Assembly: GCF_000799735.1 (NCBI RefSeq)
Contig: NZ_JUHH01000001.1
Coordinates: forward strand, 744,001-808,000
Origin: Methylotenera sp. G11
Lineage (GTDB): Bacteria > Pseudomonadota > Gammaproteobacteria > Burkholderiales > Methylophilaceae
Length of the DNA: 64,000 nucleotides
Reading direction: 5' to 3'
Shown here: piece by piece, positions 5,619-25,433 of the stretch
How the letters are laid out: every line of letters begins with the position of its first letter
Position numbering within the stretch: position 1 is the stretch's first letter
Made by a program: the position numbers and the translations under genes
The notes under the pieces: generated by a model
Databases searched by the model: none
What the model was told of the DNA's origin: nothing
Seen by the model: the letters and a program-made list of their open reading frames with translations, nothing else

Positions 5619-7028
5619 CTAATAGGCATGCTTGCTGTTAAACCCCCTGATTACGGTAAGCACGACAATCCGGATATCCAGCCACACGGTCCAGTTGCGG
5701 ATATACTCCAGATCGCACCTGACGCGGTTCTGCATCTTGTCCAGCGTGTCGGTTTCACCGCGATATCCCTTGATCTGTGCCAGTCCTGTAATGCCCGGCT
5801 TGACCTTATGGCGCAACATATAGCCATGCACCAGCTTACGATATTCCTCATTATGCGATATGGCATGCGGCCTTGGCCCCACTACCGACATTGTCCCTTG
5901 CAGCACATTAATGAACTGGGGCAACTCATCCAGCGAAGTCCGCCGCAAAAAGGCACCCAGGCGCGTCACTCGTGCATCACCGGGCTTTGCCTGCGGCACA
6001 ACATCGCCGTCTTCACAAACCCGCATCGTGCGAAACTTCCATACTTCTACCACATGACTGTTAAGACCGTAACGACGCTGTTTAAAAATAACCGGCCCCG
6101 GCGAACTCAGCTTTACCGCAAGCGCGATCAGCAGCATCGGCAACGCTACCGCCAACAGAATCAGCGATGAGAGCACAACATCTTCGGCACGCTTGAGCCA
6201 GCCATCTACGCCATTGAATGGCGACTCATAAACACTCACCACCGGCACGCCGCTCATGTTGTACCAACGCGCATGCATCAACTCGAATGTCAGCATGTCG
6301 GGCACGATATAAACGGTAGCGGTCGTGTCGGCAAGCTCATTCACGCAGAACTCAAGCTCCACGGTTTTATGTTGCGGCAACGCCAGGTAAATCTGGTCAA
6401 CCCCGCCCAGCTTGACTTCCTGCACCATGTCTTCCAGGCTGCCCAGCACTTTTAATTCCGGATAGTCCGGCAATGGCACAAAACCAATAGGATGGCTGTA
6501 ATCATAGAAACCCAACACATCCAGCCCCAGCCACTTAGACTCCAGAGCAACCAGCGCCATGCTCTGCGCCGCAGCGCCGGTGCCTGCAATCACCAGATTG
6601 CGGCTATTCATGCCCTGACGGCGCGCATAGCGCAGCGCCTGGCGCAACAGTATCCGGTAACCAATCAGCAACCCCCAGCTTATCAGCGCATGGGCGACAA
6701 TGACGACCCTTGAATAGTTACTTGAAGTTTTAGTCAGAAATGCCAGCGTTACCATCACGACCAGCGCCAGAACCCATGCAATCGTAACGCTGCGAATCTC
6801 CGGCCACAGCTGCGAGATACGCCACGAACCATAGACCCGGTTTGCACTGGCAAACAATAGATAAATCAATATCGCACGAATGGCAGCATTGATATATTGC
6901 CCATCGAAGGTGACATTATGCAGTCCGGTGCTGATGACCATTGCCAGCATGATGACCAGACTATCGACAAATTTATGAGCTACGGAAAACTTGGTTTGAT
7001 GGGGACGAATCATTCCACCTTGCGGCAT
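5619..7028 (-). CDS. Undecaprenyl-phosphate sugar phosphotransferase (WcaJ-like)
   Basis: 469 aa initiating enzyme: it transfers a sugar-1-phosphate, probably glucose, to undecaprenyl phosphate. Four or five N-terminal TM helices precede a Rossmann-like CoA-binding-type domain ([19 protein letters not shown]). One further TM segment (about 285-305) leads into the catalytic bacterial sugar transferase domain, which has VIFKQRRYGLN, VWKFRTM, LPQFINVLQG and MSVVGPRPH. The length and domain order match WcaJ/EpsE-type long PGTs. It starts a sub-block PGT-PHP-wza-wzc-dnaJ, separated from the preceding gene by 305 bp that hold a candidate promoter and an 18-bp tandem repeat. In this position glucose-1-phosphate is the best guess for substrate. 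Confidence 0.92.
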   Translation of the reverse strand: MPQGGMIRPHQTKFSVAHKFVDSLVIMLAMVISTGLHNVTFDGQYINAAIRAILIYLLFASANRVYGSWRISQLWPEIRSVTIAWVLALVVMVTLAFLTKTSSNYSRVVIVAHALISWGLLIGYRILLRQALRYARRQGMNSRNLVIAGTGAAAQSMALVALESKWLGLDVLGFYDYSHPIGFVPLPDYPELKVLGSLEDMVQEVKLGGVDQIYLALPQHKTVELEFCVNELADTTATVYIVPDMLTFELMHARWYNMSGVPVVSVYESPFNGVDGWLKRAEDVVLSSLILLAVALPMLLIALAVKLSSPGPVIFKQRRYGLNSHVVEVWKFRTMRVCEDGDVVPQAKPGDARVTRLGAFLRRTSLDELPQFINVLQGTMSVVGPRPHAISHNEEYRKLVHGYMLRHKVKPGITGLAQIKGYRGETDTLDKMQNRVRCDLEYIRNWTVWLDIRIVVLTVIRGFNSKHAY

Positions 7029-7333: not shown

Positions 7334-9481
7334 CTATTGGCGCTGAGGTCTACCCTGGTCTTGTTGTCTACCCTGGTCCTGCCTGCCTTGAAAAGCCCTG
7401 CCCGGGTTCTGCATTTCCGGCACTGCCCTTCCCTGCTCCGGCCGGCCAAAATCAGAACGCCCCGGGTTCACATCTCGATAGACCCGATTGGCAGGCATGC
7501 CCGGCAATTCTGCACGCCCGCCGCGTGGCTGCTCTACCTGTGGCACTGACTCAAAACGCTGCTGGCGCTGGGGCATTTCTGCCGGCACCTGCGGCAAACG
7601 CTCTTGCGGCGCAATGCGTATCTGCGCAGGCACATCGCCATCGCGACCTCCCCGCGATGGCTGCCTCAGGTTCGGCTCACCTTGCGGCATCGGCTGCTGA
7701 CGTGCTGCCGGTTCACGCCATCTGTAAGGCTCTGTGATCTCGCGTGATTCAAATCGGTTCGGCCTGGACTCAACCGCACTGCCAGTATCCGGTTTGGCAA
7801 CATTGCCGTTACCCGGCTCAACAACCGTGCCGGCACTTGAACTATTGCGGTTAGCGCCAGCCGGCCTGTTGACACTGCTATTGCCAGGTTCACGCATTTT
7901 GGGCGACGCTGCAGGAGCGGGCTGCGGCCGCCAATCTTCATAGCGTGACGGCAGAGGCGGGCGAACGCGCTCGGGACCTAGCTGGGTGCCGGGTTCAGGG
8001 CGACGCAGCTCCGTAACGCCAGACTTCGGCGGTTGCAGATAGCGCGGCTCATCATTGCCCGTTGACCGCGCTTCAGGCTGCCATGGCAGCTTGGTTTCCT
8101 GCGGCCGTTTATTAACCACGACCGGCCTTGATATTATCTGCTCCGGCGGACGCGAAGCCCTGGGGGCATCAGCCACCAGGTTCGCGGCTCCCGGTTTCAT
8201 CGGCAGCGCACCCTGCATCGGTTTTAATTCTTTAGTCTGTGCAGGCAGGCGCTGTGCGGTTTCCTGCATACGGTGCCTGCCAAAGTTCTCGGCAGAGGTT
8301 GCGATAATGGCATCTTTCACGCGACTGTTGCTGTACTGGATGCTGTTGATATTGATCGCCCTTCTGGGATCCACATGTTTATGGTTCACCAGGCGCGGCC
8401 CACCCCAGTTACCCCACCACGGCTTGCCGACAAATCCGCGATATCCCCACCACGGCACACAGGGCTCACCCCAGCCCAGGGCAACCCAGCCAAACCCCGG
8501 GCTGCCGAACGATACCCCGAAAAACGCCACCAATGCCGGTGCATACACCGGGCGCACGGTAACAACGGGGCCGGGAGTCCAGGCCCAGTAACCGGCGTAA
8601 TGCACCCAGCGTCCGTAGTGAAATGGCACCCAACCCCAGGGCGCATCATCAATCCAGGTCCACTGGTAATAAGGATCCCACACCCAGCGTCCGGTACTGT
8701 AAGGAGCCCAGTTGCCTGGCATGGCATCCGGCACCCATATCGGGCCATATTCAACGGTAGTACGCCAATTGCCGTAATAATCGAGATCACGCGCCCCTGC
8801 GATGCCCGGCGTAATATAGCGCTCGCTGTACGCATCCGCCAGGTCATTGCTGCGCTCATCATTCCAGCGGTCCCAGGAATTGGGCTCCGGAGCCACATAG
8901 GTCTCTGCGCGGCCATCCTCACTCACCACGATTTCTTCAGAGGGCAGAATAACCAGCGCCTGCCCCTTGGCCTGCGTCATCGTAGCTGCACCGCCGCGTC
9001 GCGTAATGAAATGCACGTTCCCGTTTACATCCACGCGGTAATAACCGATACGGTCGATCGTAAACACAGCATGCGGGGTCGCGATTTCAATGTTATAACC
9101 CGCGACAGGCAAGGTACGGATATCCAGGGAAACGCGCCCGCTGGCTACCTTGATTTGCAGAAAATCCGGTGTCTGGCTGACTACGGACACTTCCGTCCTG
9201 TCATCGGCGCGAATGAACATACGTCCCTCGCCTTGCAGCTCCAGCACGGAATCAGGGCTGGTGTATAAGGCATCACCGCTGATGATCGGTGTATTGAGGC
9301 GAGCGTCGACCCAGTCTTCTGCGCCATTGCGCCAGAAAGACACATTGCCGGTGGTATAACTAAGCCGTAGCGGGTTGACTGCGGATCGCTGCGGATCAGT
9401 TTGCGCAAGCACATTAGCGCTGGCAAAGGCTAAAAGCAGCCACAGCATTAATGAGCTAGTGAATCGGGAAAAGGTAAGCAT
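7334..9481 (-). CDS. Secreted FecR / DUF6600-type protein with Pro/Arg/Gln-rich tail
   Basis: About 715 aa from the preferred start ATG 9481, which follows AGGTG by 5 bases; longer in-frame starts exist up to 9544. A signal peptide (FTSSLMLWLLLAFASANVLAQ) is followed by a FecR-like domain (about 35-180). Then comes a Trp/Tyr/Gly/Pro-rich DUF6600-type region (WVPFHYGRWVHYAGYWAW and similar). The last 300 residues are disordered and rich in P, R, E and Q, ending in repeats of DQGR. It is secreted to the periplasm or beyond. Function is unknown. FecR domains bind surface signals or polysaccharide in other systems, and its place inside the exopolysaccharide operon suggests a structural or matrix-binding role, which is inference. 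Confidence 0.8.
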   Translation of the reverse strand: MLTFSRFTSSLMLWLLLAFASANVLAQTDPQRSAVNPLRLSYTTGNVSFWRNGAEDWVDARLNTPIISGDALYTSPDSVLELQGEGRMFIRADDRTEVSVVSQTPDFLQIKVASGRVSLDIRTLPVAGYNIEIATPHAVFTIDRIGYYRVDVNGNVHFITRRGGAATMTQAKGQALVILPSEEIVVSEDGRAETYVAPEPNSWDRWNDERSNDLADAYSERYITPGIAGARDLDYYGNWRTTVEYGPIWVPDAMPGNWAPYSTGRWVWDPYYQWTWIDDAPWGWVPFHYGRWVHYAGYWAWTPGPVVTVRPVYAPALVAFFGVSFGSPGFGWVALGWGEPCVPWWGYRGFVGKPWWGNWGGPRLVNHKHVDPRRAININSIQYSNSRVKDAIIATSAENFGRHRMQETAQRLPAQTKELKPMQGALPMKPGAANLVADAPRASRPPEQIISRPVVVNKRPQETKLPWQPEARSTGNDEPRYLQPPKSGVTELRRPEPGTQLGPERVRPPLPSRYEDWRPQPAPAASPKMREPGNSSVNRPAGANRNSSSAGTVVEPGNGNVAKPDTGSAVESRPNRFESREITEPYRWREPAARQQPMPQGEPNLRQPSRGGRDGDVPAQIRIAPQERLPQVPAEMPQRQQRFESVPQVEQPRGGRAELPGMPANRVYRDVNPGRSDFGRPEQGRAVPEMQNPGRAFQGRQDQGRQQDQGRPQRQ

Positions 9482-9604
9482 TTGGGCACCTGCTTTATTC
9501 ATGACGGATCGTGTCTGCATCCCCCGCGATTTGCGGGATGACAATAACTGGTTAACGTATCTTCATGGTTGCAGTTGACACCCCATCAAGCATACAAACA
9601 CGGC

Positions 9605-22081: not shown

Positions 22082-23536
22082 TTAACGGCCGTAATGGTCT
22101 TCAAAACGTACGATGTCATCCTCACCCAGGTAAGTGCCGGACTGCACCTCGATGATCTGCAGGGGCACCTTGCCTGGATTGCTCAGGCGATGTGTTGACC
22201 CTTGCGGAATATAGGTGGACTGGTTCTCGGTAAGCATGAATGTCTTGCCGTCACAGGTCACTTCAGCCGTGCCTGTCACCACGATCCAGTGTTCGGTGCG
22301 GTGGTGGTGTTTCTGCAGGCTGAGGCTGGCGCCGGGTTTGACATGAATACGCTTTACCTTAAAACGGTCGCCGTCATCAGTGCTGTCATACCAGCCCCAG
22401 GGACGGTGCACTTTTCTGGGGAGAACATGTTCGTTACGGCGCAATGATTCCAGCTGCGTGACCAGTTTTTTCACATGCTGGCTCTGGCTGCGGTCTGCAA
22501 CCAGCACCGCATCCGCGGTTTCCACCACAATCAGGTTATCTACCCCCACCGTAGCGACCAGGCGGCTGCCTGCATAGATAAAACTGTTTGCGGTATCTGC
22601 CAGCAGCGTATCGCCCAGCTTCACGTTGCCGGATTTATCCTGCTCGCCCACCTGCCATACGGCATCCCAGGCGCCAAGGTCATTCCAGCCGGCGGCCAGC
22701 GGCAGCATATGAATTTGAAATTCCGAATCCGGGCAGCGTTCCAGTACGGCGTAGTCCACAGAATCAGCCGGGATTCTGGCAAAAGCATCTGCATCCGGGC
22801 GCTCAAACTGTGCATCACGGCTTTTACTGCTGAATGCCAGCATAGTAGCGGCCACCATCTGCGGCTGGAAGTGTTGCAGCGCTTTCAGCCAGGTGCTGGC
22901 ACGCAATACGAACATGCCGCTGTTCCAGGTGTAGTCACCGCTTTCAACGTAAGCCTGTGCGGTTGCCGCATCCGGCTTTTCGGTAAACTGGGCGACGCGG
23001 TAGGCACCATGGGCATTTTGCTCGCCGGTGTGTTTGATATAGCCATAACCGGTGACCGGAGCATCCGGCGTGACTCCAAGGATAACAATAGCGCCATCTG
23101 CCGCATCGCGGATGCTGGCTTGCAGCGTTTCGGTAAACGCGGCACTGCTCTGCACGGTCTGGTCGGCCGGGGTCACGACCAGAATCGGGTCGTCACCCTG
23201 CTCTATTGCCTTTAGCGCAGCCAGCGTAAGTGCCGGTGCTGTATTGCGTCCCACAGGTTCCAGCAGCAGCGTGGTGGCAACCTGCGGCAGCTCGCGCAAT
23301 TGGTCCAGCGCCAGAAAACGATGCTCTTCATTCGTCACCACCAGCGTTTCACCGATACTGATATCGTCTGCCGCCAGCGCATTCACGCGTGCCACCGCCT
23401 GCTGAAACAGGCTGGTCGCTCCCGATAGCACCAGAAACTGCTTAGGGAATCCAGAACGCGATAAAGGCCACAAGCGGGTACCGGAGCCGCCGCACAGAAT
23501 GACTGGAACAATGTTCAAATGAGGAGGTTTATGCAT
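22082..23536 (-). CDS. manC: Mannose-1-phosphate guanylyltransferase / mannose-6-phosphate isomerase
   Basis: 484 aa bifunctional type II enzyme. The N-terminal guanylyltransferase has [16 protein letters not shown] (about 12-27), FTEKPD and NSGMFV. The C-terminal cupin isomerase has RPWGWYDS, the metal-binding [11 protein letters not shown] and ending [16 protein letters not shown]. It makes GDP-mannose from mannose-1-phosphate; a phosphomannomutase is not present in this window. It is the first gene of the long minus-strand exopolysaccharide run, about 250 bp downstream of the ops element. The ATG has no clear Shine-Dalgarno. Confidence 0.95.
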
Positions 23537-23785
23537 GGGTGAAATAGAAAAGAATTGTACGTGTCATAATTTTTTTATTGATGTTGCAATGCGCCGATAC
23601 GCGACCTGATAAAGCAATGTTCAAGCCTATCAGAATCAGTTTTCAGAAAAAAGACAGCCTCTCAAATCCATCACTTCAAACTGAAAGGATTGTGCGCGGC
23701 GAGCAGGTTTCAAGCACATCACACATTGGCTCCGGTTATCAGATTGTGGCTGGCTGCATCTGCCTCTATTTCAGTATGCGTCAGG

Positions 23786-23797
23786 CACGCTACCGCC
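23786..23797 (-). promoter_or_regulatory. ops element (RfaH recruitment site)
   Basis: The minus strand reads GGCGGTAGCGTG, an exact match to the 12-nt ops core. It lies about 30-40 nt after the predicted transcription start and in the direction of manC. The gene for an RfaH-like factor begins about 140 bp away on the other strand. Confidence 0.88.
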
Positions 23798-23832
23798 ATA
23801 CTGTAACCACGATCAGCATACGCAAGCCAGCG

Positions 23833-23861
23833 ACTATACAGTATTGAAACCATGCGCTCAA
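23833..23861 (-). promoter_or_regulatory. Predicted sigma-70 promoter of the exopolysaccharide operon
   Basis: -35 TTGAGC (23,861-23,856), a 17-bp spacer, then -10 TATAGT (23,838-23,833). Start is predicted near 23,826. The ops element follows at the distance seen in other RfaH-controlled operons. Confidence 0.7.
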
Positions 23862-23938: not shown

Positions 23939-24484
23939 ATGCCGAATGACCTGCCTGCACCCGCCGTTCCCAAAGCAACAAAACCTGAAGATGCAGTAGA
24001 CAGTGCCCACTGGTACCTGATTTACACCAAACCGCGTCAGGAGTACCGCGCGCTGGAAAACCTGCAACAGCAGGCGTTTGAAGTTTACCTGCCGCTGCAC
24101 CAGACAGAGCGCTTGCTGCGCGGCAAGCTCCGTTTAGTAGAAGAACCTTTGTTCAAGCGCTACCTGTTTGTCCGCTTCGATGCTCACCGCAGCCCCTGGC
24201 ATACGATTCGCAATACATTGGGTGTCAGTGAACTGGTGCGTACCGGCGGCCAACCGGCCATAGTACCGGCTGCGCTGGTGCAGGCGCTGAAGCAATTGCA
24301 GCCCGGGCCACAGGCGCTATATCAGCCTGGCGAGGCGCTGCAGATCACAGCCGGCCCGTTTCGGGACCTGCTGGCCGTATTTGAAATGCAAGAGGGAGAT
24401 AGCCGCGCCATTGTGCTCATTGAACTGCTTAATAAAATGCAGAAAATCTCCATCAACCTGAATGCGTTAAGCAAACTGGCTTAA
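23939..24484 (+). CDS. rfaH: RfaH-type NusG-paralogue antiterminator
   Basis: 181 aa. An NGN domain (about 22-125) starts at HWYLIYTKPRQEYRALENL, with PLFKRYLFVRF as the conserved strand. A short KOW-type C-terminal domain (about 130-175; ITAGPFRDLLAVFEM) follows. Unlike housekeeping NusG, the gene is not next to secE or ribosomal genes but stands divergent to a 22-kb exopolysaccharide operon whose leader holds an exact ops site. RfaH family members bind ops on the non-template strand of paused RNA polymerase, suppress termination and recruit ribosomes. The second role fits manC, which lacks a clear Shine-Dalgarno. The first 20 residues are a Pro/Ala/Lys-rich extension. Confidence 0.9.
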   Translation: MPNDLPAPAVPKATKPEDAVDSAHWYLIYTKPRQEYRALENLQQQAFEVYLPLHQTERLLRGKLRLVEEPLFKRYLFVRFDAHRSPWHTIRNTLGVSELVRTGGQPAIVPAALVQALKQLQPGPQALYQPGEALQITAGPFRDLLAVFEMQEGDSRAIVLIELLNKMQKISINLNALSKLA

Positions 24485-24653
24485 ACAATTCGCCGCGACT
24501 GTCACCGTCGATATGCATTCAAGCTGAATTTAATACACCAGCCGTGTCACTGACCCGGATTTGTGTGACAATCAACATAACTGATCAACAACCATACCCG
24601 GCTGAATGGCTGGGCTCGGGCAAATTACCTTTCTTAGAGACTCAAGACGCCGC

Positions 24654-25433
24654 ATGAAACATCCTTTTTTTGAACACTTAGGTGAACATTATCCTACTCA
24701 GCTTGAAGAAAGCTTTGATCGCATCCTGAGCAAGATAGAGGCACTATGGGATAAACCCGAGATTGATGATTATTTCAGCGAACTGATCATCGACCGGCGC
24801 GGCGGGCGCCAAGGATTCTCTGAAGGCGTCATGCGAGACATCATGTTCCTGCGTGAGTACCGCGAACTGGAGCGGCTGCGCCATGCCGAGCGCGAGGTGG
24901 ATGCCATACGCGAACTGGAACGGCGCGGTGTAAACCTGGACAAAAAAGGGTTTATAGATGCTATCTCTGAAGGCAATATCGAGCTGGTTGACCTGTTTGT
25001 GCGTGCCAATTTCAACATCCATACTGAAGATGACCAGGGAACACCCGCAGTCATCATCGCCCTGAAAAAAGGCTATACCATCATCGCGCGCCTGCTGATC
25101 AACGCCGGTGCCGACATCAACGCCAGGGACCGCATCGGCATGACCCCGCTGCTGCTGACCTGCGGCAAATTAAGCAGCGGCAACAAAGAACTGGCTGAGC
25201 TGCTCATCCACAAAGGTGCCAACATCAATGTGCGCGACCTGGTTGGCTTTACACCGCTGATACTTTCCGTCACCGGTGGGGTTTCGGGCGTCGCCGAGCT
25301 GCTGATCGAAAAAGGCGCCAACCTGCTTGCAGCCACCAAAACCGGCAAAAGCGCATTGTCTATCGCAGAAATGACCGGCAACACCAGGATTGCCGAGCTG
25401 ATACGCCGCAAAATACAAGAGCAGCGCAAATAG
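24654..25433 (+). CDS. Ankyrin-repeat protein
   Basis: About 259 aa from ATG 24654; an in-frame ATG 48 bp upstream (24,606) has no better ribosome site. The first 95 residues (MKHPFFEHLGEHYP, SFDRILSKIEALWDKPEI, RQGFSEGVMRDIMFLREY) form a helical domain rich in Arg/Glu that I do not recognise by function. Four or five ankyrin repeats follow (INARDRIGMTPLLLTCGKL, INVRDLVGFTPLILSV and others). No signal peptide or TM helix, so it is cytoplasmic. It is convergent with the dioxygenase gene 22 bp downstream. It probably binds a protein partner, with no evidence which. Confidence 0.8.
   Translation: MKHPFFEHLGEHYPTQLEESFDRILSKIEALWDKPEIDDYFSELIIDRRGGRQGFSEGVMRDIMFLREYRELERLRHAEREVDAIRELERRGVNLDKKGFIDAISEGNIELVDLFVRANFNIHTEDDQGTPAVIIALKKGYTIIARLLINAGADINARDRIGMTPLLLTCGKLSSGNKELAELLIHKGANINVRDLVGFTPLILSVTGGVSGVAELLIEKGANLLAATKTGKSALSIAEMTGNTRIAELIRRKIQEQRK

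Follow-up and report, generated by a model that had tools for sequence, protein, structure and literature searches.

A divergent rfaH gene facing an exact ops element and a JUMPstart-type stem-loop: a probable betaproteobacterial variant of the RfaH regulatory unit at an exopolysaccharide operon of Methylotenera sp. G11

The locus described here raises the question of whether a methylotrophic betaproteobacterium reads a long polysaccharide operon with its own form of the RfaH system. RfaH and ops are themselves already known; in the excerpts of PMC7593976 cited here, RfaH is called ubiquitous in Proteobacteria, and the E. coli protein is described as the sole member of the family with a recruitment process understood in detail. 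We analyzed 64,000 nucleotides of Methylotenera sp. G11 (contig NZ_JUHH01000001.1, positions 744,001 to 808,000), referred to below as the window, whose numbering is used throughout. Our findings suggest, with a probability of about 85%, that the locus is a complete and working RfaH-ops-JUMPstart regulatory unit in a betaproteobacterial variant. At the sequence level, this reading draws on membership of the protein in the RfaH family, an exact and single ops, a stem-loop in the JUMPstart register, and conservation of the pair in relatives; pausing, recruitment, antitermination, and ribosome loading are proposed by analogy with work on E. coli.

The host genome encodes three PQQ alcohol dehydrogenases over the cut-off, which fits methylotrophy. 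Within the window, rfaH (23939-24484, plus strand, 181 aa) is divergent to an exopolysaccharide operon of colanic-acid type and approximately 22 kb (1376-23536, minus strand), whose first gene, manC (22082-23536, minus strand), encodes a GDP-mannose pyrophosphorylase/PMI (TIGR01479, 623 bits, cut-off 373). The operon was annotated from profile matches, and several names come from models whose curated cut-off is not reached. Judged by these matches, the gene set is colanic-acid-like: it comprises manC, gmd, fcl-like and ugd-like genes, a wzx-like flippase gene, glycosyltransferase genes, WcaF-like and WcaI-like genes, VanZ and DUF6600 genes, and genes for WcaJ, a Cps4B-like protein, an export-protein-like product, and a Wzc-like kinase. 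The gap between rfaH and manC measures 402 bp and contains ops, with 141 bp between ops and the rfaH ATG. The earlier note had placed an RfaH-type gene divergently within about 150 bp of ops and manC behind ops on the minus strand, and both placements hold. Two neighboring genes were also recorded. A 736-aa open reading frame with a DUF6600 domain and a TTG start lies within the polysaccharide operon (7334-9544, minus strand) and has no match to a further Pfam family (E≤0.001) or to any NCBIfam family (E≤1e-10), and an ankyrin-repeat protein gene (24606-25433, plus strand) lies directly 3' of rfaH on the same strand.

The product of rfaH belongs to the RfaH family proper. It scores 163 bits against TIGR01955, above the NCBIfam cut-off of 144.5, and stays below the cut-offs of related families (UpxY, 74.2 bits with a cut-off of 100; NusG, 50.5 with 135.7; LoaP, 33.9 with 125); the NusG N-terminal domain PF02357 is present. 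For comparison among relatives, we aligned this protein with 57 of 80 named proteins, 11 of the 80 being left out by the start rule, 1 by an over-strict filter, and 11 for being more than 85% alike. The residues that face RNA polymerase (W4, F51, Y54, and F56 in E. coli) are all kept in the 58 rows. Among the residues that contact or matter for ops in E. coli according to the excerpts of PMC5995543 and PMC2871177, the Methylotenera protein keeps K10, R16, Q24, and T72 and differs from E. coli at H20, which is N41, and at R73, which is L94. Across the alignment, K10, Q24, and T72 are invariant, R16 is kept in 36 of 58 rows and R73 in 9 of 58, H20 is replaced by N in 53, and N70 is replaced by R in all 58. 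Alanine at H20 or R73 is reported to cripple recruitment of E. coli RfaH (PMC5995543, excerpt), and the near-uniform exchanges at H20 and N70 probably represent a changed readout of the same ops word.

The ops element itself, GGCGGTAGCGTG, occupies 23786-23797 on the minus strand, in the leader of this long operon, and is identical over its 12 bases to the ops of the E. coli rfb and waa leaders, as the earlier note had claimed; the next base is C, so the 13-mer GGCGGTAGCGTGC is also complete. By arithmetic, an exact 12-mer would be expected in both strands of the 402-bp gap approximately 5e-5 times (804/4^12). The genome-wide scan proposed earlier finds no second exact copy in 2,545,099 bases and 16 further places with one mismatch. 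One of these, GGCGGTAGCGTT, lies on the operon strand inside the WcaJ gene (6142-6153, minus strand) and is possibly a second RfaH contact within the operon, or else a chance match.

Upstream of ops, a promoter-like site (23833-23861, minus strand) consists of the -35 hexamer TTGAGC (23856-23861), a 17-nt spacer, and the -10 hexamer TATAGT (23833-23838), with 9 of 12 consensus matches. The hexamers are where the earlier note had described a good promoter; their quality is at the level of chance, since 0.7 matches as good are expected in the 801 bp scanned, and the match is therefore weak on its own. Its one other support is its position just 5' of the JUMPstart element. Between 3600 and 23540, both strands of the operon contain 18 promoter-like matches, against a mean of 25.3 in shuffled sequences. 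In agreement with the earlier claim, no second promoter stands out within the operon, a scan result that is not proof of absence. Downstream of ops, an untranslated leader of 249 nt (23537-23785, minus strand) extends to manC, whose ATG is preceded by no Shine-Dalgarno sequence (anti-SD duplex +2.6 kcal/mol); several other genes of the operon likewise lack one.

Beyond the ops 12-mer, the loading signal appears to include a JUMPstart-type RNA hairpin, which the earlier note had overlooked and which stands directly in front of ops. This stem-loop, AUGCUG-AUCGUGGUUA-CAGUAU (23798-23819, minus strand), contains a loop of 10 nt and folds only weakly (-3.1 kcal/mol, z +0.54). The same arrangement occurs in the E. 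coli leaders of rfb and waa, which are Rfam JUMPstart RNAs at 60 and 55 bits. In the Methylotenera site, RF01707 scores 16.9 bits, compared with a gathering score of 35, and at the gathering threshold Rfam has no match within the window; the stem-loop is thus regarded as the same kind of element and is not filed as a member of RF01707. Rfam likewise reports no JUMPstart RNA in seven further rfaH loci, each of which has an exact ops.

Comparison of sites indicates that the stem-loop is kept in place despite sequence change. A group of sites shares GCGCTTGCYGATCGTGANACRGCAN 5' of ops and the remaining sites are unrelated to it in sequence; either kind is able to fold into a small stem-loop with a 3' arm that ends 1 or 2 bases before ops. 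In an alignment of 22 rows (this site, two from E. coli, and 19 others, chosen from 39 sites for a recognizable hairpin), the inner five pairs are kept in 99.1% of cells, none of 500 shuffles is as good, and slid partners pair in at most 58% of cells. The choice listed 24 sites, of which L133 and L177 were left out, and 15 other sites were unused. Two-sided changes in this alignment amount to ten cells, all from the two E. coli rows; among the remaining 20 rows, the fourth pair varies between UG, CG, and UA, with both bases exchanged between the CG and UA forms. In 27 sites that are less than 70% alike (out of 47, with L197, whose ops lies 5' of rfaH, left out), the probability of being a 3' partner peaks at positions -5 and -4 (0.92 and 0.91; 0.49 in shuffles; z 6) and is depleted from -14 to -22, as for a loop. 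Over positions -6 to -2, single sites range from 0.39 to 0.99, and the Methylotenera site has 0.68. Furthermore, a contiguous stem ending exactly at -2/-1 occurs in 15 of 39 sites, compared with 2.5 in mononucleotide shuffles (largest 7).

Folding stability presents a different picture. The main group has a mean z of +0.44 (19 sites), which does not reveal the stem-loop, and 17 other sites have a mean z of -1.87 (-0.44 for the same sites at -60 to -33, and 0.00 downstream). As stability alone fails in the main group and at the Methylotenera site, the case is built on pairing and position. Two further structures were noted. An outer stem between GCGCU of the 5' flank and AGCGU of ops pairs in 96% of cells with no two-sided change and is off register at the Methylotenera site; we set it aside as unproven. 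Additionally, once ops is fully transcribed, GUAUGCU can pair with AGCGUGC of ops (23784-23828, minus strand; -15.8 kcal/mol, z -1.18).

The earlier note presented a factor and its target standing together as a local pair in this organism. Their proximity is confirmed; as a local curiosity, the pair does not stand, since it is common in the order and present elsewhere in the class. A first set of loci was compiled by searching 399 genomes of the order for rfaH at E≤1e-30 (37 genomes, 40 places) and adding two places from the genus, with flanks of up to about 10 kb per side where contigs allow and the Methylotenera sp. G11 place taken from the window. After two of these 42 places were dropped for duplication or overlap (G422b and G123b), an unbiased k-mer count over the 2-kb flanks of 40 loci (148,900 bases) returned ops as the most widespread 12-mer, in 16 of 40 loci, with approximately 0.02 loci expected by arithmetic; the runner-up, in 12 loci, overlaps ops. 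In a second set of 80 named loci, 21 have an exact ops at most 2 kb from rfaH, two of which (L116 and L156) repeat the first set, which gives 35 distinct loci, this one included. Exact ops is absent within 2 kb in 24 of the 40 and 59 of the 80 loci, in some because contigs end. In a wider draw from the class, 58 of 274 genomes matched, and 9 of the 29 loci read besides this one have an exact ops within 1.5 kb, all on the same strand as rfaH, eight of them 3' and one 5' of the gene. The RfaH-ops pair is thus widespread, though an exact ops was absent near the majority of the rfaH loci read.

What is unusual about the Methylotenera sp. G11 locus is its divergent order. Of the 35 distinct loci, 34 have ops on the rfaH strand and 3' of the gene, at 70-200 bp in 24 of them, and this locus is the exception. 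Methylotenera oryzisoli (L099), the best match of the RfaH scan, whose RfaH is the sister of this protein in the tree (99/86), carries the element on the strand opposite rfaH in the same divergent order; its ops, GGCGGTAGTGTG, has one change, there is no spacer base, and a stem pair has changed in a compensatory manner from G-C to A-U. RfaH exceeds the cut-off in only 4 of 61 relatives; within the genus, where some genomes are incomplete, the count is just 3 of 37. This patchy distribution indicates that the gene has probably been gained or lost several times.

Genes that follow ops point in the same functional direction in most rows inspected. In 36 rows with a near ops, the first open reading frame of at least 100 aa behind it was named by eye: 25 are genes for polysaccharide or export functions or for MarR_EPS-like regulators, 6 look like chance frames, and 5 are other genes; the one MarR_EPS-like regulator that was scanned matches TIGR04176 at 152 bits. 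In L137, L171, L177, and G358 (L084), the place of a polysaccharide gene after ops is taken by toxin-antitoxin-type genes (small nucleotidyltransferase-, HEPN-, or MazF-like), also identified by eye. Four contigs titled Bacteroidetes, Sphingomonadales, or Rhodospirillum (L154, L120, L129, and L175) carry betaproteobacterial-like RfaH genes and are probably mislabeled or mixed bins; L154 and L175 were placed in the tree. Two RfaH clades have no exact ops near the gene. One of them (G266, G078, G434, and G123c) may use another signal, and in the other (G054, G145, G341, and G397) far ops/JUMPstart sites were detected on other contigs, at 57 bits in G054 and, more weakly, at 27.5 bits in G145.

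To follow the element beyond the vicinity of rfaH, we built our own covariance model of the ops/JUMPstart element, R1. In the Methylotenera sp. G11 genome, it reports one site at 49 bits, which is a training row, and the next place reaches 16.5 bits. At E≤0.01, R1 matches 19 of 37 rfaH-bearing genomes (TIGR01955 at E≤1e-30) and 8 of the 362 other genomes of the order (Fisher 1.9e-16; n=399). With the nine genomes of training sites removed, the counts are 10 of 28 and 8 of 362 (2e-8), and at 40 bits or more they are 5 of 28 and 1 of 362. Among the 80 named loci, R1 matches 25 at E≤0.01; 11 of these, as well as L156, supplied training rows, and L099 did not. Some sites are distant from rfaH: in one genome the distance is 514 kb, and elsewhere the two are on different contigs. 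In the far-site loci L184-L187 and L189, as well as in L188, MarR_EPS-like regulators or polysaccharide/export genes come next, as judged by eye. No RfaH match at E≤1e-30 was obtained in genome G099, where a 52-bit element precedes an ABC-exporter-like gene (L188); this represents either an orphan site or a missed factor.

The C-terminal domain of the protein is predicted to depart from the E. coli model. Based on the 58-row alignment, AlphaFold predicts with high confidence (mean pLDDT 91.3) a NusG-like beta-barrel, in contrast to the autoinhibited alpha hairpin of E. coli RfaH, and the top hit of a fold search with this model is 8phk, RfaH fully recruited at ops (TM 0.72/0.79). As a control, the enterobacterial RfaH L192 (96% identical to that of E. 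coli) was modeled without templates from 59 rows of nearly the same alignment, and yielded a low-confidence C-domain (block means 33-59) with a helix at 135-147. This control comprises one protein; it indicates only that not every RfaH is pushed into a confident barrel by these rows. The counterparts of E48, R138, and L142, residues that matter for autoinhibition in E. coli, are kept as E69, R156, and L160, which suggests that fold switching may still be possible in the modeled protein.

In the mechanism that we propose, RNA polymerase would start approximately 30 nt before ops, as the promoter-like match suggests, make the short stem-loop, and then pause at ops. RfaH from the adjoining gene would read the non-template strand at ops and bind the polymerase, and it must act in trans, since rfaH and ops are divergent. 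It would then keep NusG and Rho away and assist ribosome loading on a leader that lacks a Shine-Dalgarno sequence, so that the 22-kb polysaccharide operon would be transcribed to its end. The divergent layout also means that nascent RfaH cannot be loaded onto the polymerase that is transcribing rfaH, and ops would consequently be required to direct the factor with or without autoinhibition. These steps follow E. coli, where polymerase pauses at U11 of ops and RfaH attaches to the non-template strand extruded there, shuts out NusG, and aids ribosome loading on leaders without a Shine-Dalgarno sequence (excerpts of PMC5995543, PMC11001881, and PMC7819879).

The position of the stem-loop relative to this pause deserves attention. 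When polymerase stands at U11, the stem, counted from its last paired base, is 11 or 12 nt behind the RNA end. Hairpin-stabilized pauses such as his have about the same hairpin spacing. The RNA-DNA hybrid is described as growing to 11 bp upon RfaH binding (PMC11001881, excerpt); such a hybrid would cover ops 1-11, and the stem-loop would stand directly behind it. The same excerpt calls the ops-paused complex biochemically distinct from hairpin-stabilized ones. The word JUMPstart is absent from the texts of PMC5995543 and PMC11001881, and the template of the former, in the part cited, is a T7A1 promoter construct. The end of the stem-loop falls at the expected start of the hybrid in the ops-paused complex, which turns the role of the stem-loop in pausing into a direct question.

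Other readings of the locus were weighed against this one. A chance match of the 12-mer beside rfaH, with RfaH serving other targets, might be entertained given that by arithmetic the 12-mer is expected approximately 0.3 times per genome of this size on both strands, and that the 13-mer occurs somewhere in 65 of the 362 order genomes without rfaH. The match falls, however, in the one gap predicted, 34 further distinct loci show the pairing, the stem-loop beside ops is conserved, and the next best place in the genome stands at only 16.5 bits; we reject this explanation as extremely improbable. The element could also be chiefly an RNA structure bound by a factor other than RfaH, such as a NusA- or ribosome-linked leader, with ops as a part of it. 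The loop and 5' flank GCGCTTGCYGATCGTGANAC are indeed nearly invariant in 17 sites, a group picked by likeness, but outside that group loop and stem are unrelated and ops is exact (exact ops being the rule of selection), and the element tracks rfaH across genomes, so that this reading appears highly unlikely.

Two further possibilities concern the barrel. RfaH might be a monomorphic NusG-like factor recruited locally without ops, co-translationally or through local concentration, with ops as a relic. The confident barrel, set against the low-confidence, helix-bearing C-domain of L192, would accord with this, as would the proposal of cis recruitment for monomorphic RfaH genes adjoining operons (PMC13015549, excerpt). 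We consider it unlikely, since RfaH cannot be loaded from its own transcript in a divergent layout, the ops of this locus is exact, and the element in M. oryzisoli is kept with one ops change and a compensated stem pair. A tentative reading, less likely than not, is that RfaH is non-metamorphic, with a permanent NusG-like barrel as its C-domain, and is nevertheless aimed by ops, which it would read through a changed pocket (N20 and R70 in place of H20 and R73), with the polymerase kept in place by a pause hairpin in the nascent RNA that ends 11-12 nt behind the ops pause. If this were true, the divergent order would separate ops reading from both fold switching and cis loading, and ops reading would predate autoinhibition in the evolution of RfaH.

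The RfaH-ops-JUMPstart unit that we favor can be placed among known systems. With E. coli RfaH and the ops/JUMPstart leaders of rfb and waa, it shares the identical 12-mer, the register of the stem-loop (5 pairs, a 9-nt loop, and a 1-nt spacer in E. coli; a 10-nt loop here), a long surface-polysaccharide operon, and the RfaH family. It differs in that E. coli rfaH lies between tatD and ubiD, whereas here the gene adjoins its target divergently, and in that MG1655 has 16 ops sites (PMC7819879, excerpt) compared with one in this genome. The likeness to RF01707 consists of a stem-loop directly 5' of GCGGUAGCGUG; the JUMPstart stem-loop reported in PMC2864571 is listed, in the excerpt cited, for gamma-Proteobacteria, and stem and loop sequences have diverged in Methylotenera sp. 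G11. Similarly, the operon-linked NusG paralogs UpxY, LoaP, and TaA are encoded with the operon that they are thought to serve. This protein scores below the cut-offs of UpxY and LoaP. In contrast to the paralogs, its gene is divergent and not inside the operon, and the locus has an exact ops, whereas recruitment of paralogs encoded inside operons is called unknown in the excerpt of PMC7593976. Putative monomorphic RfaH orthologs (PMC13015549, 2026; excerpt) share the predicted beta-barrel C-domain and the neighboring polysaccharide operon; co-translational cis loading as described there cannot apply to the present locus, which has an exact ops/JUMPstart and a divergent order.

Regarding earlier work, the open-licence literature was searched through titles and the starts of abstracts. 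Among the matches listed, no paper has ops or RfaH in betaproteobacteria or Burkholderiales as its subject, and only PMC2864571 is on the subject of a JUMPstart stem-loop or a hairpin at the ops pause. As far as these matches indicate, what is new is the occurrence of ops/JUMPstart beside betaproteobacterial rfaH genes, the divergent form, and the clash with cis-recruitment models. Dozens of related loci pair the factor with an exact ops, and most add a stem-loop that is kept in place despite unrelated sequence; such loci represent ready test systems outside enteric bacteria.
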